This document shows positions 11,169 to 59,479 of a stretch of 64,000 nucleotides of DNA, piece after piece. The stretch comes from Diphasiastrum complanatum (Eukaryota > Streptophyta > Lycopodiopsida > Lycopodiales > Lycopodiaceae). Where the stretch lies: positions 1,078,217 to 1,142,216 of the forward strand of contig CM055108.1 in the NCBI GenBank assembly GCA_029204225.1, in the 5' to 3' direction. Under the pieces are notes generated by a model that worked only from the letters and a program-made list of their open reading frames with translations, ran no database searches and was not told the origin of the DNA. The number at the start of each line of letters is the position of its first letter. Within the stretch, counting starts at the first letter, position 1. A program made the position numbers and the translations under genes.

Positions 11169-11286
11169 AATACATCTAAGTGGGCGCGCGTCCAGTACAT
11201 ATCACCGACGGATTTCTCTTCCTTTTGCTTGGAAATCTGGGCGATCATGAGAGTTGGCATCTGTTTAATCCCCTCCTCGATCAGCG

Positions 11287-11307
11287 ATGGCGGAAGCAAA
11301 ACCATAG
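11287..11307 (+). CDS. Possible upstream ORF (6 codons) of DGAT1
   Basis: ATG GCG GAA GCA AAA CCA TAG lies 17 bp before the DGAT1 start at 11324, in another frame. The ATG context (GCGATGG, G at +4) is good. If the transcript starts upstream of it, this minimal ORF could reduce initiation at the main ATG. Its use depends on the unknown transcription start. Confidence 0.3.
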   Translation: MAEAKP

Positions 11308-11323
11308 CTCTTGCATAGATGCG

Positions 11324-12856
11324 ATGGGGGAAGCATTTCCAGGCTCAAAATCAAAAGATCAAACTGATGCTGTAGCTGAATCAGTTGCAGCCTCGGAAGC
11401 AAAACCAGCAAATCAGACTGATTCACAGGGAATGATCAGCTCTCAAGGTGAAAGCGGCCTGAGGCGGCGATCAGAAAGCATCCATTCCACCTCTTCTCAA
11501 CCCAAATTCCCCCACCTTCAGAATGAGCAACCCCCTCCAAAGAAAGGCTCTCTGGACCCCAATTTGAACTGGACGATCCCTGCATCAGCACCCGTGCACA
11601 AGAGGGCCAGGGAGAGCCCCCTCAGCTCCAAGGCCATCTTCCAGCAGAGCCATGCAGGGCTCTCCAACCTGTGTATTGTCATTTTGGTGGCCGTGAAGGG
11701 CAGGCTGATCATTGAAAACCTGAAGAAGTATGGGCTATTGAGTCAAGCAAGCTTCTGGTTCAGCTCCATGTCTGCTAAGGACTGGCCGCTTCTCATTTGT
11801 GGGCTGTCCCTACCCATCTTCCCAATCTTAGCTCTTGTTGCTGAGAAATTGATGGCAAGTGCCTTGATTTCTGAGGGTATGGTCAGGCTTCTGCACTTAG
11901 TAAATTGCACAGTTGCAATTCTTTACCCTGCTTATGTGATAGAGAGTGTGAAGTCTACCCCAGTCCCAGGCTTTGCTCTCATTTTCTTGGCAATCACAGG
12001 CTGGATGAAGCTTGTTTCTTATGCCCACACCAATGCAGACATCCGGCAGCTCGCGCTTTCTGGCGGCGAGAAACCCGATATTCCAGCTGATGCGCAGGTG
12101 GTTGATTATCCAGATAACATCACAGTGGCAAATATTGGGTACTTCATGGTGGCACCCACATTGTGTTATCAGCTTAGCTATCCCAGATCCCCCTGTGTCA
12201 GAAAAGGCTGGGTTTTGGGACAAATTGGCAAACTGGTTGTGTTTCTGGGGCTTGCAGCATTCATCATAGAGCAATATATCACCCCTACTATTAAAAACTC
12301 AGAGCATCCACTAAAAGGAAACTTTTTGTCTTCAATTGAGAGGATGTTGAAGCTGTCCATTCCAACTCTGTATGTATGGCTTTGCATGTTTTATGTCTTC
12401 TTTCATTTATGGTTCAACATTCTGGCTGAGCTTTTACGCTTTGGGGATCGTGAGTTCTATAAGGATTGGTGGAATGCAAAGACTGTGGAGGATTACTGGA
12501 GGATGTGGAATATGCCTGTGCATAGATGGCTTGTGAGGCACATCTATTTTCCATGTCTCCGCCTTGGGATTCCGAAACACACAACCTTGATTGTTGTATT
12601 TACAATTTCTGGAATATTTCATGAAGTTGTTATCGGAATCCCTTGCCACTTCTTCAGATGCTGGGCCTTTCTAGCCATAATGCTCCAAGTGCCCCTGGTC
12701 CTTCTTACAAATTGGCTACAAAGAAAGTACCAAAGTTCTACGATGGGGAACATGATTTTTTGGTTCTTTTTCTGCATTGTAGGTCAGCCCATGTCAATTT
12801 TGCTGTATTACCATGAGCTTGTTGTGAAGCAGCAACAAGCCCTGCAGGTTCAGTGA
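11324..12856 (+). CDS. DGAT1: Diacylglycerol O-acyltransferase 1 (DGAT1), intronless
   Basis: Catalyses acyl-CoA + diacylglycerol to triacylglycerol, the committed last step of storage-oil synthesis, in the ER membrane (MBOAT family). The frame is open from 11180. I chose the ATG at 11324 (510 residues) because this is the usual plant DGAT1 length and the extra 48 upstream residues look like leader. Visible landmarks, numbered from 11324: acidic/Ser-rich N-terminus with RRR at 47-49; conserved ESPLSSKAIFQQSHAGL near 97-113; KLVSYAHTNADIR near 229-241; APTLCYQ at 277-283; FYKDWWN at 378-384; and SGIFHEVV with the MBOAT His at 433. It ends with a YYHE motif and no lesion. Flowering-plant DGAT1 genes have about 16 exons; this copy has none, suggesting a retrogene or complete intron loss. 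No poly(A) tract or target duplication was seen. Confidence 0.93.
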   Translation: MGEAFPGSKSKDQTDAVAESVAASEAKPANQTDSQGMISSQGESGLRRRSESIHSTSSQPKFPHLQNEQPPPKKGSLDPNLNWTIPASAPVHKRARESPLSSKAIFQQSHAGLSNLCIVILVAVKGRLIIENLKKYGLLSQASFWFSSMSAKDWPLLICGLSLPIFPILALVAEKLMASALISEGMVRLLHLVNCTVAILYPAYVIESVKSTPVPGFALIFLAITGWMKLVSYAHTNADIRQLALSGGEKPDIPADAQVVDYPDNITVANIGYFMVAPTLCYQLSYPRSPCVRKGWVLGQIGKLVVFLGLAAFIIEQYITPTIKNSEHPLKGNFLSSIERMLKLSIPTLYVWLCMFYVFFHLWFNILAELLRFGDREFYKDWWNAKTVEDYWRMWNMPVHRWLVRHIYFPCLRLGIPKHTTLIVVFTISGIFHEVVIGIPCHFFRCWAFLAIMLQVPLVLLTNWLQRKYQSSTMGNMIFWFFFCIVGQPMSILLYYHELVVKQQQALQVQ

Positions 12857-15892: not shown

Positions 15893-16714
15893 TGTGAGAA
15901 ATTGGCAAAAATCTAGCTTGGTATTTTTTATGATAGAAGTTTGTAAGTGAATCTCACATGTGTGGAGGACTTCCCACGTGTGGATAATTGTAAAGTAAAT
16001 AAAAAATGTTTGATATAGGGGTCTCATAGAATTTCATAGTCAAGCATTTAGGTGTAGGGTGTTGATAGGGTCAAATTTGGCATAGATGGCAAATTATCCA
16101 TTTCCACTTGTAATGCCACTATTGAGCCAAAATAGAGTAGGAGGCCAAAATTGTGCCAATTAGAGTGTAGACAAGTGTAATGTTTTTGTTTGATGAAGTT
16201 TAAGAGGTCCAATAGGATTTAGAGGTGGAACCATGAGTGGTCCAATAGAATTTGAGGTTTGCTTGAAAATGGTCCAATAGAATTTAGAGGTGCATGGATC
16301 AATGGTCCTATAGGATTAAGAGGTGGAAAAGAGTGGTCCAATCATAATTAAGCATAATGGTAGCTCGTGGATCTACTAGTATCATTGTGCACCTCATTTG
16401 GATCTAATTGATTTTGATATTGAGTGGATTTTGACTATAAGTGATTTTCTAGCTTTCTCTCTCTACCCGAGAGCTATTGATGATTTTCTCTCTCTACCCA
16501 AGGAGAGCAGCTGTTTTAACTTAGATTACTTTTAAAACACTTCCCATATGTGTGAGTGAGAGTTGGAAGTGATTGAATGCATGTAGTAGTGTGTTTTTGC
16601 CATAGATTCAAAGATAGATCTTGAATCTCAATCTAGTCTTGATCTTGGTGCATCTACACACCTTAGGAGATCACAAGTACATGTTGTGGATAGTCCACAC
16701 GTGTGAAATCAACA
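15893..16714 (+). repeat. 5' LTR of element A
   Basis: 822 bp, TGTGAGAAATTGG...GAAATCAACA. Shares its body with the LTRs at 20158, 39508, 40957 (inverted) and 58744. Contains CTCTCTACCCGAG and ACACGTGTG words common to all copies. Confidence 0.92.
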
Positions 16715-16727
16715 TGGTATCAGATCC
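16715..16727 (+). promoter_or_regulatory. Primer-binding site of element A
   Basis: TGGTATCAGATCC, one change from the initiator-Met tRNA complement TGGTATCAGAGCC found in its relatives. Confidence 0.85.
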
Positions 16728-20157: not shown

Positions 20158-20980
20158 CGTGAGAAATTGGCAAAAATCTAGCTTGGTATTTTTTATGATA
20201 GAAGTTTGTAAGTGAATTTCACATGTGGGGAGGATGTTCCCACGCATGGAGAATTGTAAAGTAAATCAAACTGTTTGATATAGGGGTCTCATAGAATCTC
20301 ATAGTCAAGCATTTAGGTGTAGGATGTTGATAGGGTCAAATTTGGCATAGATGACAAATTATCCATTTCCACTTATAATGCCACTATTGAGCCAAAATAG
20401 AGTAGGAGGCCAAACTTGTGCCAATTAGAGTGTAGACAAGTGTAATGCTTTTGTTTGATGAAGTTTAAGAGGTCCAATAGGATTTAGAGGTGGAACCATG
20501 AGTGGTCCAATAGAATTTGAGGTTTGCTTGAAAATGGTCCAATAGAATTTAGAGGTGCATGGATCAATGGTCCTATAGGATTAAGAGGTGGCAAAGTGTG
20601 GTCCAATCATAGTTAAGCATAGTGGTAGCTCGTGGATCTACTAGTATCATTGTACTCCTCATTTGGATCTAATTGATTTTGAGATTGAGTGAATTTTGAC
20701 TGTAAGTGATTTTCTAGTTGTCTCTCTCTACCCGAGAGCTATTGATGATTTTCTCTCTCTACCCGAGGAGAGCAGCTTGTTTTTACTTAGATTACTTTTG
20801 GAACACTTCCCATATGTGTGAGTGAGAGTTGGAAGTGATTGAATGCATGTAGTAGTGTGTTTTTGCCATAGATACAAAGATAGATCTTGAATCTCAATCT
20901 AGTCTTGATATTGGTGCATCTACACACCTTAGGAGATTACAAGTACATGTTGTGGACAGTCCACACGTGTGAAATCAACA
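20158..20980 (+). repeat. 3' LTR of element A
   Basis: 823 bp. Its first base pair reads CG instead of TG (C for T). Otherwise very close to the 5' LTR, with scattered substitutions. Confidence 0.92.
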
Positions 20981-21876
20981 TCTTGTTAATCAATTAACTC
21001 TACTCGATGTTCCCTTATATTTTATAAATAATGAAAGTTATATTTCATTTAATGATATAGAAGATGTTTTGAATTTGAGAGAGGATGAAATCCTCTCAAT
21101 TTTTGCTGAAAAATTATCATAATTTTTTGACATTGTTGATTACACATATGATGACCTTGACAATGAGATAGATTATGATAAAGATGGCAATTGGAAATCT
21201 GGCAATGAGACCTTGGAGGCCATGATTGAAAAATCTAAAGCCTATGAAAAAACTTTGCCTACAGAGGAGGAATTTTTGGAATTCCAAAAAAAATATCCCC
21301 CAAGGCCTAGATATATCCCCTCCGAAAATGTAGAGGCCATTGAAGGACATGACATTAGCAAAATTCGTTGAATACGATGATTATGATTTGGTATGTAGAT
21401 ATTATATTGCTATTTATATTGTTCAGTTTTCTTATTTCAAACATTGTGTTAAAGTATGAGACCATTTTAAATTTATTTTCTTTTCTCGTTTATAGGATGG
21501 TATTGAAGTAGATGCCTTTGGTATGAAACATGGAGGCGTCTGCGGGAGAAAGGATGTGTCTCTATCTCATTATTTGAAAAACTTTCAAAATAATGAGATT
21601 TGTATATATCATTCATCTTTTGATCCATATGCAACCACTGTCATCGTGGCCATCAAATCATTATCAGTTTGATTAGGAGGCCATAAGTACGCAAGGGGAA
21701 CATATAAAATAATTTTGTGAAAAGGGATTTGGCTATTAAAATACTGGGTTATACTCCCAATGCTAGTAGAATATGCAAGTAAATAAGTTTTTCAATAATA
21801 CGGACCTCAGCATGCAATGTGCATATGTGAACATTTTTTTAATGGAATTGGCAGAACACTTTTCATATTTGGATCT

Positions 21877-30637: not shown

Positions 30638-30968
30638 TCATGATTGCTTATCACTTATATCCTCACAGACAATATAGTCCAATTTCCGAGATACATGACA
30701 CCAATTGTAATAGCAAGATTGCAAATTAGGCCAATCAGAGGAAGAATGTGTAAATTCTCGTAGCCAAACCGCTAGTACCATTTCCTGCTCGGACTCTGGA
30801 AGTATAAAGATTGCCTGCTCAAGCATTCTCTCTGCCTCTGCCTTCTCGTATGCAGAAAATACAGACCCCTCAATTCCACTTATGTTACTGCAGAGTAAAG
30901 GAAGCCACAAGAGAAGTAATTGGGATGTGATGTCGATCGATACTTCATAATCACCCGAAACCATTCCC
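30638..30968 (-). CDS. Last exon of the BTB-family-like gene
   Basis: Opens after TTTGTGCAG. Encodes the WLPLLC...EKAEAERMLEQ...WLREF...DWPNLQ block, which is the strongest family match in the gene, and ends at a TAG-type stop at 30638. Confidence 0.7.
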
Positions 30969-33900
30969 CTGCACAAAATGACTGCACCATACAATGGCAC
31001 ATCCCTTCAGTTAGCAAATGTACAATCTGGCATTGAAGTACACTAAGGATACTTATGGGTGAAGGTTGATTAAAATGATGCCCTCAATATTGTGCTGACT
31101 GATGCGGTCCAAAATACAAAGAGAACGAGCACTTGAATTTTCCAGTTTGATTTTATAGCTGGAAAGGTTGGCCATAACCAAGAGGGCTCTGCCTGGCAAA
31201 AGTTACTACAAATAAGTCGAAAATGCTTACCTGAGAGTTTCATTAATGATCTTTGAACTCGTGGATTTGCACACAAGGACAGACTGGCCAAAGACGTGGT
31301 GGTGCTCCACTGCCGGATTGCATCATCAAGAGCTGAGCACTCATTCAACTTCTCTGCCATCCATGACAATTCTTGTGCAAGCTTTTCTGTCATCTCTTCC
31401 TTTTCAGCAATCTGAGCAACTCTTGATGCAGCTGCTTGCTGCTGGATCTGCGCTGACGATCGGCATGCATACCCAAGATAGTGACCAATATTACCAACAA
31501 ATGGAACGGCTGAAAGTTGGCTGGTAGTTACTCCTAATGGAATGCCTTTGAGAACACGCCAAGGCCAGGCTAAAGCATCGACTTGCTGCTGCTGCTTTAT
31601 ACCTTCCAGATATTGGCTCAATTGGTAAATCGTCCTTGCAAACCCTTCTTGCACTGCTATCTGGTTAACTTCCTTCAGTGCTTGTGAACCATGTGCGGCA
31701 TTCTCATGGATCAATTTGTCAGCCAGTGCCCGCACAAAAACATATTTTCTTGAAGATGCTGGAGTATCATTCACCAACTCCAGAGCCTGCCAGACGAAAA
31801 AAATTCCAGCACTAAGAGCATAATTAAGGATTCGAGCATTAAGAATTCATTCAACCACCAGTAACAGTTACAACTCAAAACCAATAGCAATTTACAAGTA
31901 AAATCTGTTTCCGTCAAGTTCATTTTATACTTCTATATTTGATAATTTGTGTTTTCCAAAATGCAATTTTCTAGAAGCATGCCTGCGGCAGATTTTCGTA
32001 CTGAGTCAATTCCAATGATTGGGTAATTCCATTTGGGAAATGCAATCCTATTTTCATCAAATTTGCAATCAAATTAACCACTATAGCTTTGCTACACTTA
32101 GCAGCAACATCTCAGACAAGACAGGATGGTTCACACATGAAAGAGGGACGGCACAAAGATTTATACTTGTCAGAAAGAGCACAATAAGGTCAAGAAATAT
32201 TGAGAGGGGGTACGCTCATTGCCAAGGCAGCACATAGAAGGATCATGACAATGCAACGAAATTGCCTCGACAACACTAAAATTCTGAGTAGCCACCTCTC
32301 ATATGCAAATAGAACATTCAAAAACAGAACCCTTTGTACTCAAAGTTTTTGTTGAAGGTTCCCTCAGTATTTTATCATTAATCTTACAAGAGAAATATAA
32401 ACTACGAAGAACTTCGATTCTTCAGGAGATCATGTAGTATGTACTGGCCATTGAGAGGTGAATTGTTATGGACTAGGTAGCGGGCGTGGGCAGGCCCGCT
32501 ACCGCGTATAGCAGGTAGTCAGTACCTACCGAGCCGCGGAGGCGGCGAGGTAGGTACGACTACCCGGTATGCGGTAGTGGGCCTGCTCACGCCCGCTACC
32601 GGACGTAATTATCTGCTCACGCCCGCTATCGGTGGAGGAGGAGAGATGGCAGGAGACGAGGAGAGAGATCGGTGGAGGAGGATGGTAGGAGAGGAGGAGA
32701 GAGATCGGTGGAGGAGGAGAGATGGCAGGAGAGCAGGGGCGCAGCAGAGGAGAGGGAGGCGGAAGAGAGAGAAAGGAGGTGGGAGGCGGAATAGGGAGGG
32801 AGGCGGAAGAGGGAGGAAGAATGGACGTGGAGGGAGGCGGAGAGATAGGAGGGAGGCAGTAGGTAGCGGTGGATGCTCTACCACTGAGCTTAGCTGTCAC
32901 CTGCCTCACAACTTGGGCCACCTAACCATGGCTTTGACACCATGAACTGTTAGGTCTAACTTGGCTCTGATACCATGTAGGAAAGCAAGAGTCAAGTCAC
33001 CAAGATCTAGTTATCAATCAATCTCCACAAGAAACAAGAGAGAAGAGGCTTGGGTGCCCAACATTAAGAGAGAGAGAGAGAGAAAACAACAACAAGAGCA
33101 ATGGAGAGCAATGCTTAGCCAAACTGAAAAATGTGACACAATAAGCCAATATGTACTCTACCTACTTACTGACTGTAGGGCACCCCCAAAAGTCAAGCTA
33201 GGGCCCCTAAACCAAATTAGACCTCTAAGGACCCACATGTTAGAAATCCATAAATCATAATATGGATGGACAGACTAGGATTCGAACCCAGGACCTCCCT
33301 CATACCGGATGGGATGCTCTACCACTGAGCTATCTGCCCTGTTTGATAGTTCTCTCTAGAGTGTGGATTGATATTCCAACACCCCCCCTAAAGCCACACT
33401 TGGTTGGGGTCCTAGCTGTCACCTGCCCCACAACTTGGGGCCACCTAACCATGGCTTTGACACCATGGTCTAACTTGGCTCTGATACCATGTTAGAAATC
33501 CATACATCATAATAAGGATGGACAGACTAGGATTCGAACCCAGGACCTCCCTCATACCGGATGGGATGCTCTACCACTGAGCTATCCGCCCTGTTTGATA
33601 GTTCTCTCTAGAGTGTGGATTGATCTTCCAACAAATATTTCGACGAGAAGCAAAATGCTACCTGGACTTGCAGATTGACAGAGATCTTGAAGGTGGTAGA
33701 TTGTATCTACACCAATCCAGATACATTCAGAAAATCATTAATAATTTCAAATGGTTGATTGCAAGGGAGTAAATACTCCAATGATTCATGGTATAGTACT
33801 AACAAATGAAGACTGTCCCAGAGACGCTGCAGAAAGGGAAGCAATGCAGCATAAGCCTTACAGAAGGTCTATTGGTTCTTTGATGTACTTGGCAGACAAT

Positions 33901-35678
33901 ACGCGGCCAAACATTGCTTATGCAATGTTCAGACTGAGCCAATTAGAACGAGCTTAACCAGTTTCTTGTAATCAAATGATTAGCAAAACCCCCTTTTCTC
34001 TATTCCTATATAAACAGGATGAACGAGAGAGATGAGTTGGTTGTTTTGATGCGTCAGTGTTAGTCATGCAGCAGCAATCACACTTTCACACAAACAGATA
34101 TAGAAGTAGTAGTAGCTAGTTCCTCATAAGAGGGAATCCTTCTCATGCAACGACGCGCTGATCTAGGAAACAGACCGCTTGAAAAATGTTGTAAACTTAT
34201 TTCTGAAAACAGAGTTGCAACATTTTGTATATGGTGTGTAATCTGTGAATGATTTTTGATGCTTGCTTACAGTAGATATATTTCCGCTGTAATTAAACAT
34301 TATCTACTGTTCATAAACTTAAATCAGATCTGCAGTGTCAATCTATAGCTTGGAAGAGGATAGACCTTAGTGTGCAGCAGTAGCTATGGCTAGGAGTTCG
34401 ACTCTATCTAGGCAGAATAGGAATCAGAATTACGATCCATTCAGAGGTTCCAACAAGGGCATTTTGCCTGTGAAGCACATGAGCTTTACAGCCATATTGC
34501 CCTGAGGTCAATAATGTCCTAAAAAATGCACATGAGAATTCATAAAAGGATTGATGGCACATGAAAAGTCCATTAAGAAGTTACAAAAGGAGACTACATC
34601 CCAAATGAGGTCAAAGAATGTGACCCATATAAAAATTTAAGCAGTAAAAAATGGTATGTCTGTCTCATGATCCTTTAACGCTTCCGAAAGGATAACCTAG
34701 CGAGCTTCCGACGAGGTTCAACACTGTTCATTTATGGCTGTGCCTTGGTGCCTTGCAATAAATTTACAGCTGTTTTACCTGGTCACTAGGCAATTCTTCT
34801 CAATAAGTTCCCCAGAATTGCCATGTTTTACTATTTCTCACAGTCAATCTTGATTCCATTGAAACGTGTCTTTCCCCAACAAAAATTTCAACATTTGAAG
34901 AGCAGGGTTTTCTTTCTCGTGTTGATATAGGGTGTATCACCTTTTATTGAGAGCACAAAAACAAATAAAAAATCAAAAAGCTATAAAAAATACTGTTGAA
35001 CCTACAGGGTTTATCCGAGTACGCCAATCAACCCTCTGCTACTACCGAAGTTATTGGGTATAGTCGCAATCTATAAAAGAATTTTGGTGTCAATGAAATC
35101 ATTTTACGAGGCAAAATTGATCCACATGATTTGCAATTTTCCAGTGAATGCTTAGCATCTTACCATGATGGAAACGAGCTCGCTAATGTCATCACCAACA
35201 CGATGAGGTCTAATTGACGAAAGTTGCCAAAATAATCAAATTACTACTACTACGGCTCCATTATATAAGAGAAAATTTAAAAAGTAAAGTTACACACCTG
35301 AGATAGAGCACGGCCCATGGCACTTCCTTTGGAGGAAGAAGAAGCGCTAGCCACTGCATGCTTTGTGGAGCTACCGCCCATGAGAGCTTTTGTGGAGGCA
35401 GCACCCGGTCCGATCCATGCCGCCGCCGGTGCATCGTCCTCTGTCAGGAAGGGATTGTTAGTGCGGAAGCTCTCAAGCATGTTGGTGAGACCGGCAGAGT
35501 GGATCTGCGGGGGCAAAAGCACCAACAAAGCGCGTGCTACAGTGGCTGCCATCCACAGCATGAACATGAACACAAACCGAAGCTGCTCTGGGAGCCCCCA
35601 TGCCTGCATCTGCATCTGCTGCTGCTGCTGCTGCTGATCCCAATCCAATCCATTGCTTCCACTCACAAAATTCACCAT
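30638..35678 (-). CDS. Plant protein with BTB/POZ At3g05675-like C-terminal region; multi-exon host gene
   Basis: Minus-strand gene. Exon 1 is 35678-35298 (127 codons, donor CAG/GTGTGT). Exon 2 is 31786-31231 (acceptor CTGGCAG, donor CAG/GTAAGC). A probable exon 3 starts at about 31192. The last exon is about 30968-30638 (acceptor TTTGTGCAG). Exon 1 has a poly-Gln run (residues 15-21), a hydrophobic segment at about 33-57 that may span a membrane, and an Ala/Ser-rich tail. Exon 2 has YVFVRALADKLIHENA, a Gln-rich stretch and WMAEKLNECSALDDAI. The last exon has TSQLLLLWLPLLCSN, EKAEAERMLEQAIFILP and SDWPNLQSCY, which match the C-terminal part of plant BTB/POZ proteins such as At3g05675/At1g63850. 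No BTB domain is encoded. The exon 2/3 gap is only 38 nt and the exon 3/4 phase does not fit cleanly, so the middle structure needs transcript support. Function unknown. Confidence 0.65.
31231..31786 (-). CDS. Second exon of the BTB-family-like gene
   Basis: Begins at ALELVNDTP after CTGGCAG and ends in MKLS plus one base before GTAAGC. Rich in Gln and Ala with amphipathic helices. The open frame covers the whole exon. Confidence 0.75.
32470..32866. repeat. GC-rich palindromes and polypurine tract
   Basis: 32470-32630 has repeated GGTAGCGGGC / GCCCGCTACC inverted pairs and CAGGTAGTCAGTACCTACC. 32630-32866 is almost purely purine on the plus strand (GGAGGAGGAGAG-type). The composition is sharply different from its surroundings. 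The Pro/Ser and Arg/Gly frames here are artefacts. Confidence 0.7.
32867..32975 (-). mobile_element. Degraded third unit of tRNA-bearing TRIM
   Basis: 32867-32889 matches part of the TRIM's tRNA-like LTR (GGATGCTCTACCACTGAGCT). It joins directly to 32890-32975, which matches the TRIM interior (TAGCTGTCACCTGCC... to GGCTCTGATACCA, the inverted PBS). It carries an 8-bp insert relative to the intact interior. Confidence 0.65.
32976..33237 (-). repeat. Second LTR-like sequence between TRIM units
   Basis: 262 bp that on the minus strand runs TGTGGGTCC...TTTCCTACA and is followed directly by a TGGTATCAGAGCC primer site at 32975. It has LTR-style TG...CA ends but no second copy in the window. It may be the LTR of a related small element. 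Confidence 0.45.
33268..33339 (-). tRNA. tRNA-like sequence inside TRIM 3' LTR (probably not a functional tRNA)
   Basis: 72 nt on the minus strand. Acceptor arms GGGCAGA/TCTGTCC pair; the D arm GCTC-AGTGGTA-GAGC and T arm CTGGG-TTCGAAT-CCTAG fold. The A box TAGCTCAGTGGTAGAGC (33332-33316) and B box GGTTCGAATCC (33288-33278) are near consensus. The anticodon arm is irregular (TCCC/GGGA around an 11-nt loop, no U33 before a clear anticodon), so a working tRNA is unlikely. The Pol III promoter looks intact; no TTTT terminator follows within the LTR. Confidence 0.6.
33520..33591 (-). tRNA. tRNA-like sequence inside TRIM 5' LTR (probably not a functional tRNA)
   Basis: Same 72 nt as in the other LTR with one change in the acceptor stem (GGGCGGA), which still pairs with TCTGTCC through a G-U. 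Identical A and B boxes. Confidence 0.6.
33634..33957 (+). pseudogene. Copia reverse transcriptase fragment
   Basis: Plus-strand RT C-terminal part. Frames give EAKCYLDLQIDRDLEGGRLY, then SRYIQKIINNF, then MVDCKGVNTPM...RRSIGSLMYLADNTRPNIAYA. These are the standard LGIQI..R..., YI.K.L, TPM and GSLMYL...RPDI.YA motifs. One frameshift near 33740. It is from a different Copia lineage than the other copies here. The upstream RT is cut off by the TRIM at 33633. Confidence 0.8.
33958..34500 (+). other. Probable 3' end of Copia fragment and leader/gag start
   Basis: After the RT fragment comes non-coding sequence. At 34386-34504 there is a short frame starting MARSSTLSRQNRNQN that resembles a gag start. 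It could be an LTR plus the beginning of another copy; boundaries are not visible. Confidence 0.3.
34505..35276. other. No recognisable feature (intron sequence)
   Basis: AT-rich intron sequence next to exon 1 of the BTB-family-like gene. No coding, repeat or RNA signature supported. Confidence 0.5.
35298..35678 (-). CDS. First exon of the BTB-family-like gene
   Basis: 127 codons from the ATG at 35678 to the donor CAG/GTGTGT. Contains a CAG/CTG trinucleotide run (35619-35636) coding for Gln and a hydrophobic segment of about 25 residues. Confidence 0.7.
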
Positions 35679-35773
35679 CTCTGTGTCAGATCCTCTCTCT
35701 GATCAACCTCTTCTTCCTCAGAAACTACACAGAAAACAAAAAAAGACGAGTTTTTCTTTGCAAATACTTGGGC

Positions 35774-39068: not shown

Positions 39069-40380
39069 AAGCTTTGTGATTAGCACAGTAAGCTGATTCT
39101 AGATTGTTTAGCAAGATCTAGTTCAGAAGAAATGACTTAATCACAATCTAGCATACTAAGCATCAGAATATGATAGCAATGAATCAAAGAATGAGCAAAA
39201 GTAAAAGATTTTGGAGTATTAGCATTAGCTTCAACACGAGTTAGAGAGAGAAAGCTAGAGAGATAACAAGCAAAATAGTTTAGATCCAAAATGACATGAG
39301 GTAGATACAAAACTTTGGTTCTTCATCATTGATTGTGAGGAGAGCTACACATATTTATGGAGTTTGAGGTAGCTCGAGGTAGAACCACATCCATCCATTC
39401 CAAAATGACTACCAAAGTGACACCTAGAGTCTATGTGACATTTTCACTTGCCATGCATGAAATTCTACCAGCTTTTTACAAGTGTACTAGTTCTAATTAA
39501 CAAAGTACTGAGCCAAAATAGAGTAGGAGGCCAAACTTGTGCCAATTAGAGTGTAGACAAGTGTAATGCTTTTGTTTGATGAAGTTTAAGAGGTCCAATA
39601 GGATTTAGAGGTGGAACCATGTGTGGTCCAATAGGAATTTGAGGTGTGCTTGAATATAGTCCAATAGAATTTAGAGGTGCATGGATCAATGGTCCAATAG
39701 GATTAAGAGGTGGCAAAGTGTGATCCAATCATAGTTAAGCATAGTGGTAGCTCATGAATCTACCAGTATCATTGTACTCCTCATTTGGATCTAATTGATT
39801 TTGAGATTGAGTGGATTTTGAGTGTCATTGAATTTCTAGCTTTCTCTCTCTAACCGAGAGCTCATGATGGTTTTTCTCTCTCTACCCGAGGAGAGCAGGT
39901 TGTTTTTACTTAGAATACTTTTGGAACACTTCCCACACGTGTGAGTGTGAGTTGGAAGTGATTGAATGCATGTAGTAGTGTGTTTTTGCCATAGAATCAA
40001 AGATAGATCTTGAATCTCAATATAGTCTCGATCTTGGTGCATCTACACACCTTAGGAGATCACAAGTACATGTAGTGGACAATCCACACGTGTGAAATTC
40101 AACATCCATTACACTTTGTGCATGCCTTGCATGTCACTATTGATCACTTACAATTAATGCATGTGAATTGCCACGAGTTTCTACAAGCATGAATTTGCCA
40201 ATTCTATGTCTACAAACTATATGCAAGTTGTATTCTTCAAACTAGACATTACATAACCACGTAGCTCTAGTTCTATATAGGCCAAACTTGGCATTTTGCA
40301 TTTATGAGCTACATACTTGCATGGTACAACATTTGTAGCAAGCCAAAAAATCAATATAATTTGTTTTCCCAATTTTAACA
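39069..40380 (-). repeat. 3' LTR of element C, interrupted
   Basis: Starts TGTTAAAATTGGGAAAAC at 40380, continues to 40105, resumes at 39507 and is cut at 39069 by the CT block. Its last 60 bp (39069-39130) are the reverse complement of 44055-44113, the corresponding part of element D's LTR. Confidence 0.7.
39508..40104 (+). repeat. Element A-family LTR, 5'-truncated, inside element C LTR
   Basis: Plus-strand match to the last about 600 bp of the element A LTR, from TGAGCCAAAATAGAG to GAAATTCAACA. No target duplication can be found because the 5' part is missing. Confidence 0.8.
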
Positions 40381-40956: not shown

Positions 40957-41693
40957 TGTTGAATTTCACACGTGTGGACTGTCCACTACATGTACTTGTG
41001 ATCTCCTAAGGTGTGTAGATGCACCAAGATCAAGACTAGATTGAGATTCAAGATCAATCTTGAATCCTATGGCAAAAACACACTACTACATGCATTCAAT
41101 CACTTCCAACTCTCACTCACACGTGTGGGAAGTATTCAAAAAATAATCTAAGTAAAAACAAGCTGCTCTCCTCGGGTAGAGAGAGAAAATGCATCATGAG
41201 CTCTCGGGTATAGAGAGAAAGCTAGAAATCCAATAACTCACAAAATCCATGAAATCACCAAATCAATTGCTTTCAAAATGAGGAGTACAATGATACTAGT
41301 AGGTCCACGAGCTACCACTATGCTTAACTATGATTGGACCATATTTTGTCACCTCTTGATCCTATTGGATCATTGATCCATGCACCTCTTAGTTCTATTG
41401 GACTATATTCAAGCACACCTCAATTTCCTATTGGACCTCACAAGGTTCCACCTCTAGATCCTATTGGACCTCTTGGAATTCATCAAACAAAAACTTTACA
41501 CTTGTCTACACTCTAATTGGCAAGTGTTTAGCCTCTTACTCTATTTTGGCTCAATAGTGGCATTACAAGTGGAAATGCATAATTTGCCATCTATGCCAAA
41601 TTTATTCCTATCAACATCCTACACCTAGATGCTTGATGTAAAAAACATAAGACCCCTATATCTAACATAGATAATCTTTTTCAATTTTTCACA
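40957..41693 (-). mobile_element. Solo LTR (element A/B family) inside element C, TSD TCTTG
   Basis: 737 bp, TGTGAAAAATTG...GAATTCAACA-type ends on the minus strand, flanked on both sides by TCTTG (40952-40956 and 41694-41698). Its closest relative in the window is the 5' LTR of element B. It splits the conserved AKRVLRYIS segment between RT and RNase H. Confidence 0.9.
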
Positions 41694-58743: not shown

Positions 58744-59479
58744 TGTGAAGAATTGAAAAAGATTATCTATGTTAGATATAGGGGTCTTATGTTTTTTACA
58801 TCAAGCATCTAGGTGTAGGATGTTGATAGGAATAAATTTGGCATAGATGGCAAATTATGCATTTCCACTTGTAATGCCACTATTGAGCCAAAATAGAGTA
58901 AGAGACTAAACACTTGCCAATTAGAGTGTAGACAAGTGTAAAGTTTTTGTTTGATGAATTCCAAGAGGTCCAATAGGATTTAGAGGTGGAACCTTGTGAG
59001 GTCCAATAGGAAATTGAAGTGTGCTTGAATATAGTCCAATAGAATTAAGAGGTGCATGGATCAATGATCCAATAGGATCAAGAGGTGACAAAATATGGTC
59101 CAATCATAGTTAAGCATAGTGGTATCTCGTGGACCTACTAGTATCATTGTACTCCTCATTTTGAAGCTAATTGATTTGGTGATTTCATGGATTTTGTGAG
59201 TTATTGGATTTCTAGCTTTCTCTCTCTACGGAGAGCTCATGATGTATTTTCTCTCTCAACCCAAGGAGAGCAACTTGTTTTTACTTAGATTATTTTTTGA
59301 ATACTTCCCACACGTGTGAGTGAGAGTTGGAAGTGATTGAATGCATGTAGTAGTGTGTTTTTGCCATAGGATTCAAGATTGATCTTGAATCTCAATCTAG
59401 TCTTGATCTTGGTGCATCTACACACCTTAGGAGATCACAAGTACATGTAGTGGACAGTCCACACGTGTGAAATTCAACA
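58744..59479 (+). repeat. 5' LTR of element B
   Basis: 736 bp, TGTGAAGAATTG...GAAATTCAACA. Nearest relative in the window is the solo LTR 40957-41693. Confidence 0.9.

Follow-up and report, generated by a model that had tools for sequence, protein, structure and literature searches.

A Helenus-type TRIM with tRNA-like terminal repeats in Diphasiastrum complanatum and its composites with Copia elements

Introduction

In the stretch of Diphasiastrum complanatum DNA analysed here (64,000 nucleotides, hereafter the window), a unit of only 396 bp carries a tRNA-like sequence in each of its two terminal repeats. What kind of element is this, and what does a tRNA-like sequence do in its LTRs? The explanation that we favour, and hold to be probable, is that the unit is a Helenus-type TRIM (TRIMp3) of D. 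complanatum, which is transcribed by RNA polymerase III (Pol III) and mobilised by Copia proteins, and that its composites with Copia elements arose via strand transfer. The evidence comes from the anatomy of the element, its copies in the genome, the composites and a comparison between two TRIM families.

Results and Discussion

Anatomy of the element in the window

The initial annotation took 33238-33633 for a TRIM retrotransposon, and our analysis supports this assignment: the element is 396 bp long, non-coding and laid out as LTR-PBS-PPT-LTR on the minus strand. Self-BLAST recovered the two 144-bp direct repeats with four differences that had been described, namely the 5' LTR (33490-33633, minus strand), with the ends TGTTGG...TTCTAACA, and the 3' LTR (33238-33381, minus strand), delimited also by its ends and by comparison of the pair; the two are 97% identical and differ at 4 of the 144 sites. 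The TG...CA ends, the initiator-tRNA PBS, the non-coding interior of 108 bp and the adjacent G-rich polypurine tract were likewise all present. The interior occupies 33382-33489 (minus strand) and is 116 bp long in most copies read; the majority of these copies measure 404 bp rather than 396 bp because the window interior is without 9 nt. Directly after the 5' LTR lies the PBS TGGTATCAGAGCC (33477-33489, minus strand; 0 mismatches to a 12-nt motif), which should pair with the 3' terminus of initiator tRNA-Met, and directly before the 3' LTR lies the polypurine tract AGGGGGGG (33382-33389, minus strand). A motif scan detected another PBS-like repeat, TGGTGTCAAAGCC, which lies 24 nt into the interior (33453-33465, minus strand). 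No target site duplication (TSD) was found at the element ends in the window.

A tRNA-like sequence is indeed present in each repeat, at LTR positions 43-115 of the 5' LTR (33519-33591, minus strand) and at 33267-33339 (minus strand) in the 3' LTR, albeit with a length of 73 nt according to both ARAGORN and Rfam and not 72 nt as first annotated. ARAGORN called both as tRNA-Thr (GGT), and Rfam matched both to RF00005, with 49.8 bits (E = 1.1e-7) in the 5' LTR and 52.4 bits (E = 2.2e-8) in the 3' LTR, the gathering score being 29. The reading of the fold also agrees with the first description, in that the acceptor, D and T arms are paired and the anticodon arm is irregular; the last has 19 nt, 11 of them in a loop closed by a stem of 4 bp, and thus departs from the canonical 5+7+5 arm. 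The folding energies of the two tRNA-like parts are not unusual (z = -0.55 and -1.08). No 5S rRNA was found in the window LTRs, in which tRNA was the only Rfam family above the gathering score; at E values up to 1, the sole other family was a sub-threshold match to a plastid 3'UTR. With the box motifs as given in PMC10886601 and as commonly described, we located an A-box-like stretch, TAGCTCAGTGGT, in the 5' LTR (33573-33584, minus strand), and the offset of 252 bp between the LTRs places its counterpart in the 3' LTR at 33321-33332 (minus strand). B-box-like stretches, GGTTCGAATCC at 33530-33540 in the 5' LTR and a second one at 33278-33288 in the 3' LTR (both minus strand), were placed by their position in the LTR alignment.

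Neighbourhood of the element

Sequence comparison identified a second, truncated element beside the TRIM. Two base pairs downstream of the TRIM begins a 260-bp piece of an LTR (32976-33235, minus strand) belonging to a Copia family, here called X, whose full LTR is ~416 bp. This piece is followed by the same PBS and a cut-off Helenus-type interior (32891-32975, minus strand), so that the X LTR and the Helenus interior form a truncated chimera, which ends in 20 nt left over from the A-box region of a Helenus LTR (32871-32890, minus strand). Directly beyond the chimera there is a GC-rich fold-back (32476-32600 and 32480-32870), with 33-nt arms 91% complementary to each other and purine/pyrimidine-rich imperfect repeats alongside. 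The upstream edge of the TRIM abuts a broken Copia reverse-transcriptase fragment (33635-33942, plus strand), the other half of which was not found beside the TRIM in the window, and the locus has therefore probably been rearranged. A small contig (G000:C57, 36348-37110) repeats the TRIM together with its chimeric neighbour at 100% identity, and may represent the window locus in a haplotype that was not merged.

Several further features of the window deserve mention. Related LTR-like repeats, 0.6-0.8 kb long and sharing 88-98% identity, occur in both orientations at 58744-59479, 40957-41693, 39506-40106, 20159-20981 and 15894-16715; some end at an iMet-type PBS, and at the locus L149 a Helenus interior is fused to an LTR belonging to their family. 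Open frames on the minus strand at 30638-31846 and 35277-35702 may be exons of one putative host gene, in which case the TRIM would sit in an intron in sense orientation. A diacylglycerol O-acyltransferase 1-like gene (MBOAT) is found at 11180-12856 as one long open frame, its best other match being a D. complanatum protein with 66% identity.

Dispersed copies with target site duplications

We searched the D. complanatum genome (1.74 Gb, 5176 contigs) for copies bearing TSDs, as had been proposed with the first annotation, and such copies proved to be dispersed, many of them with a perfect 5-bp TSD. The similarity search gave 1224 first-look candidates, 40 of which were scored and yielded 55 matches, and an exact pattern composed of the LTR end and the PBS matched 572 places, against 0 for the reversed pattern. 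The LTR of the window TRIM's family was present at that end in 37 of the 40 exact matches read.

The first 40 loci were the best-scoring matches and hence close to the window copy. After five loci sharing flanks with others had been dropped (L009, L023, L026, L037 and L043), 35 independent loci were left for the TSD and conservation counts. Perfect 5-bp TSDs flanked 25 of these, and three more agreed at 4 of 5 bases; mismatched partners, as a control, produced a perfect TSD in 1 of 1190 cases. The second sample, also of 40 loci, was made up of the first 42 places listed among the 572, minus two already in the first sample; its loci were selected on the PBS and the final 9 bases of the LTR alone, irrespective of the tRNA part. 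Two complete LTRs were present in 25 of these loci and absent in 15; the TSD was perfect in 16 of the 25 and matched at 4 of 5 bases in five more. Removal of shared-flank duplicates (four groups) changed the perfect count to 14/21, or to 13/21 when the other member of one of the clusters was kept. Local segmental duplication is ruled out as the origin of the repeats, as TSD-bearing copies are spread over many contigs.

In the first sample of 40, at least four loci (L021, L024, L041 and L045) consist of arrays with three or more LTRs. Between the two LTRs of a unit, the median number of differences is 2.5 over 144 sites, one pair being identical (36 units, duplicates included); this low divergence indicates recent movement, on an uncalibrated scale. 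As expected for a plant element, its pattern had 0 matches in two scans of viral contigs and one of prokaryote genomes.

Composites of the TRIM with Copia elements joined at the PBS

The chimera beside the window TRIM has many counterparts in the genome. Family X encodes Copia gag and RVT_2 reverse-transcriptase domains, and a query consisting mostly of its LTR gave 2780 first-look candidates. An X-type LTR end is joined exactly to a Helenus interior at 25 places, including several duplicate loci (L109/L110, L115/L122, L119/L120 and C17/C57), and at 25 more places with one mismatch; some of the latter could be Helenus ends altered by mutation. LTRs were read at 20 of the 25 exact joints, the other five being on C1, C17 (the window locus), C57, C682 and C2174. 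An X-family LTR was recognisable in 16 of the 20 at 74-89% identity, six of the 16 matching over about the first half alone; one of the remaining joints showed a weak X match and three showed none. The reverse joint, from a Helenus-type LTR end to an X interior, was found at nine places by exact match.

These joints belong to composites of two layouts. In the first (L057 and L059), X LTRs are outermost, and a Helenus interior and LTR separate the X 5' LTR from the X interior. The outer ends of L057 bear the perfect TSD GCACT, and the X LTR of this locus is joined (4678) to the second PBS-like repeat TGGTGTCAAAGCC rather than to the true PBS; no perfect TSD was found at L059. In the second layout, outermost Helenus LTRs enclose an X interior, an X LTR and a Helenus interior. 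Four such pairs could be tested, these being the loci of this layout that had a partner end listed close by, and three of them are flanked by perfect 5-bp TSDs (GATAC, TATCT and ATTGC); in the fourth, a Helenus interior precedes the upstream end, which places the pair inside an array. One of the three composites with perfect TSDs (L129) was read whole: it is 5025 bp long and contains matches to Copia gag, pre-integrase, SH3-like and reverse-transcriptase domains.

We also surveyed what stands upstream of the Helenus interior at the first 100 listed of 593 interior starts. An exact Helenus LTR end was found in 76 and a mutated or rearranged one in eight. X-type ends accounted for five (four from the joints listed above, one of which, L104, has only a partial X match, plus L140) and other Copia LTRs, which are also present in the window, for two (L147 at 80% and L149 at 86% identity); the nine other upstream sequences match no identified LTR. 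X as the sole partner is thus ruled out by the joints of L147 and L149 to other Copia LTRs.

How did the composites arise? One reading, to which we give about even credence, is that the Helenus TRIM and Copia elements swap modules at the PBS during reverse transcription in shared particles, and that the products are inserted as units, including an element of ~5 kb in which Copia coding sequence lies between two tRNA-bearing Helenus LTRs. The competing reading attributes the composites to DNA-level recombination between elements already inserted, or to circular cDNA, and would make them uninformative on a shared particle. We regard it as a credible alternative, albeit rather less than an even prospect. 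In its favour, the two partners have about 15 bp in common around the PBS; PMC11899658 and PMC7215508 attribute tandem arrays of plants to illegitimate recombination; and the composite at L059 is without a perfect TSD. Nevertheless, the joints are placed at the PBS, the site of strand transfer, either module can be the one inserted into the other, with perfect outer TSDs at L057 and in three of the four Helenus-outer pairs, and more than one Copia family is involved, all of which argue against this reading.

The tRNA-like part within and between two families

If the tRNA-like part serves as a promoter, it may be more conserved than the rest of the element. This expectation, raised with the first annotation, failed among copies of one family and held in one comparison between two families. 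Within the family of the window TRIM, the tRNA part is overall the most variable part of the LTR and the fastest to decay; its surplus of changes lies at CG and CHG sites (90.7 per 1000 cells in the tRNA part), an excess that matches what would be expected from cytosine methylation. At all other sites it changes at the same pace as the remainder of the LTR (13.8 versus 12.9 changes per 1000, p = 0.76; 59 LTRs, duplicates included). Equal decay is expected of inserted, unselected copies and says nothing on the source elements. LTR position 47 (tRNA position 5) is A in 7 of 31 3' LTRs and in 0 of 31 5' LTRs, and is otherwise G; ordinary LTR replication should not keep such a difference between 5' and 3' LTRs.

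A second TRIM family was found at L091, with an LTR of 153 bp and an interior of 73 bp. The tRNA-like parts of the two families are identical at 56 of 71 aligned sites (78% of 72 columns), as against 38 and 40% of columns in the LTR arms and 30% in the interior. The LTR-end/PBS pattern of the second family matched 247 places in the genome at up to one mismatch, of which 20 were read, one being L091 itself. Two complete LTRs were present in six of the 20; the TSD was perfect in one of these six, and two lay inside arrays. With so few intact pairs and TSDs, the second family looks older and more broken. In an Rfam scan of nine loci from both families, a tRNA was found in the second-family loci L091, L150, L151, L155, L158 and L163, several tRNAs were found in L045, and L153 and L168 yielded no tRNA that passed the threshold. 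Beside the Helenus array of L045 (1232-2010), there are further tRNA-like stretches on both strands, among them fragments of the second family and a more diverged type.

The copy at L030, of the first family, adds a further observation, which pertains to this one copy. Outside the tRNA part, its LTR (0 versus 6.0 expected, p = 0.02) and its interior (11 versus 29.1 expected, p = 0.0005) have fewer CG/CHG sites than expected, but the shortfall in its tRNA part is not significant (13 versus 18.8 expected, p = 0.086). This pattern suggests that the tRNA part was either kept in the source elements or recently captured. Together with the likeness between the two families, it is compatible with a promoter retained in the source elements.

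Transcription of the element

Transcription by Pol III from the tRNA-like part is plausible. Alternatively, the tRNA-like part is a mere passenger and the TRIM is transcribed by RNA polymerase II from other signals in the LTR. A passenger would fit the irregular anticodon arm and the finding that, among copies of one family, the tRNA part is no better conserved than the rest. We nevertheless consider this alternative unlikely, as the tRNA-like part has been retained in the LTRs of two families that are otherwise unlike and, at L030, is the part in which CG/CHG depletion is not significant. The motif TTTT as a sign of Pol III was discarded as evidence: it is absent in 30 of 31 units, with a chance probability of 0.56. 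Finally, working tRNA genes, or a tRNA duplicated locally without any retrotransposon, are a highly improbable source of the repeats in spite of the tRNA calls by both ARAGORN and Rfam, as the many dispersed copies with PBS, PPT and 5-bp TSDs already refute such a source, the 19-nt anticodon arm with its 11-nt loop rules out a functional tRNA, and ARAGORN assigns several isotypes (Thr, Ile, Pro and Ser) across the related loci scanned.

Returning to a Pol III-transcribed TRIM that is mobilised by Copia proteins, we infer the following order of events. Transcription by Pol III would begin at about LTR position 43, close to base 1 of the tRNA-like part in the 5' LTR, and would continue across the interior and the 3' LTR into the flank. 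The TRIM RNA would be packaged by Copia proteins, and initiator tRNA-Met would prime at the PBS. The cDNA would be copied by ordinary LTR strand transfers, and the Copia integrase would insert it. If, in the course of these transfers, a cDNA end with one PBS annealed to the PBS of a Copia element packaged alongside, composites would result.

Comparison with known systems

The initial annotation knew of no TRIM with a tRNA in the role of promoter. This view did not hold up, as exactly such a class has been described: Kojima (2024; PMC10886601) named TRIMs with tRNA-like LTRs Helenus and placed them, together with Cassandra and Ajax, in TRIMp3. The available text of that paper gives a length range of 311-1263 bp for Helenus, reports 5-bp TSDs for fungal and plant Helenus, links fungal Helenus to Copia and treats Pol III transcription as unproven there too; its only listed plant with Helenus is Selaginella moellendorffii, with an LTR of 120 bp and an interior of 85 bp. 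Among open-licence PubMed Central papers, as far as the listed titles and opening lines of abstracts show, we found no further work on TRIMs with tRNA-like LTRs after this study.

The element of D. complanatum agrees with Helenus in being shorter than 1000 bp and non-coding, in its two LTRs with a tRNA-derived sequence containing A and B boxes, in the PBS after the 5' LTR and the PPT before the 3' LTR, and in its multiple dispersed copies; the 5-bp TSDs typical of plant and fungal Helenus flank sampled copies and are lacking at the window locus. Compared by description only, the 120/85 bp of S. moellendorffii (LTR/interior; PMC10886601, in the text available) stand against 144/116 and 153/73 bp in the two D. 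complanatum families. In the same text, there is no indication of the helper of Cassandra, one interior match between Copia and Helenus is reported, in fungi, and composites with Copia joined at the PBS are not described. Helenus, listed there from one plant, is now known from a second lycophyte in hundreds of copies. The PBS-joined composites with TSDs constitute a countable genomic record of Copia families that may share reverse transcription with the TRIM; if the exchange in shared particles is true, they would preserve a trace of the Copia families by which Helenus RNA is packaged. A more practical consequence concerns annotation: tRNA-like LTRs inflate automatic tRNA counts in rust fungi according to PMC10886601, and would do so in the D. 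complanatum genome as well.

Other small elements are more distant. Cassandra resembles the D. complanatum TRIM in carrying a promoter derived from a Pol III gene in its LTRs and in forming tandem arrays, and TGGTATCAGAGC is part of the search motif in PMC7215508; Cassandra differs in that its LTRs carry 5S rRNA sequence, in place of the tRNA-like one here. The tRNA-derived SINEs (SINE2), as described in PMC10886601, are likewise short interspersed repeats with a tRNA-derived, Pol III-type promoter. Nevertheless, SINE2 elements have no LTRs and move by LINE-type mobilisation, whereas the LTRs, PBS, PPT and 5-bp TSDs of the D. complanatum element show mobilisation of the LTR type. The canonical plant TRIMs of Gao (2016; PMC4717578) are alike in size class and in tandem arrays, and the putative autonomous relatives of TRIMs given in the accessible text are all Copia in six named flowering plants. 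The large relative given there for S. moellendorffii is a Gypsy element, whereas the partners in D. complanatum are Copia, and the term "tRNA" does not occur in the main text of that paper as available, so that the tRNA-like LTRs set the D. complanatum TRIM apart. What is new here, in relation to all of these systems, is a second lycophyte host of Helenus, the presence of two families in it, and an unusually clear record of fusion with Copia.
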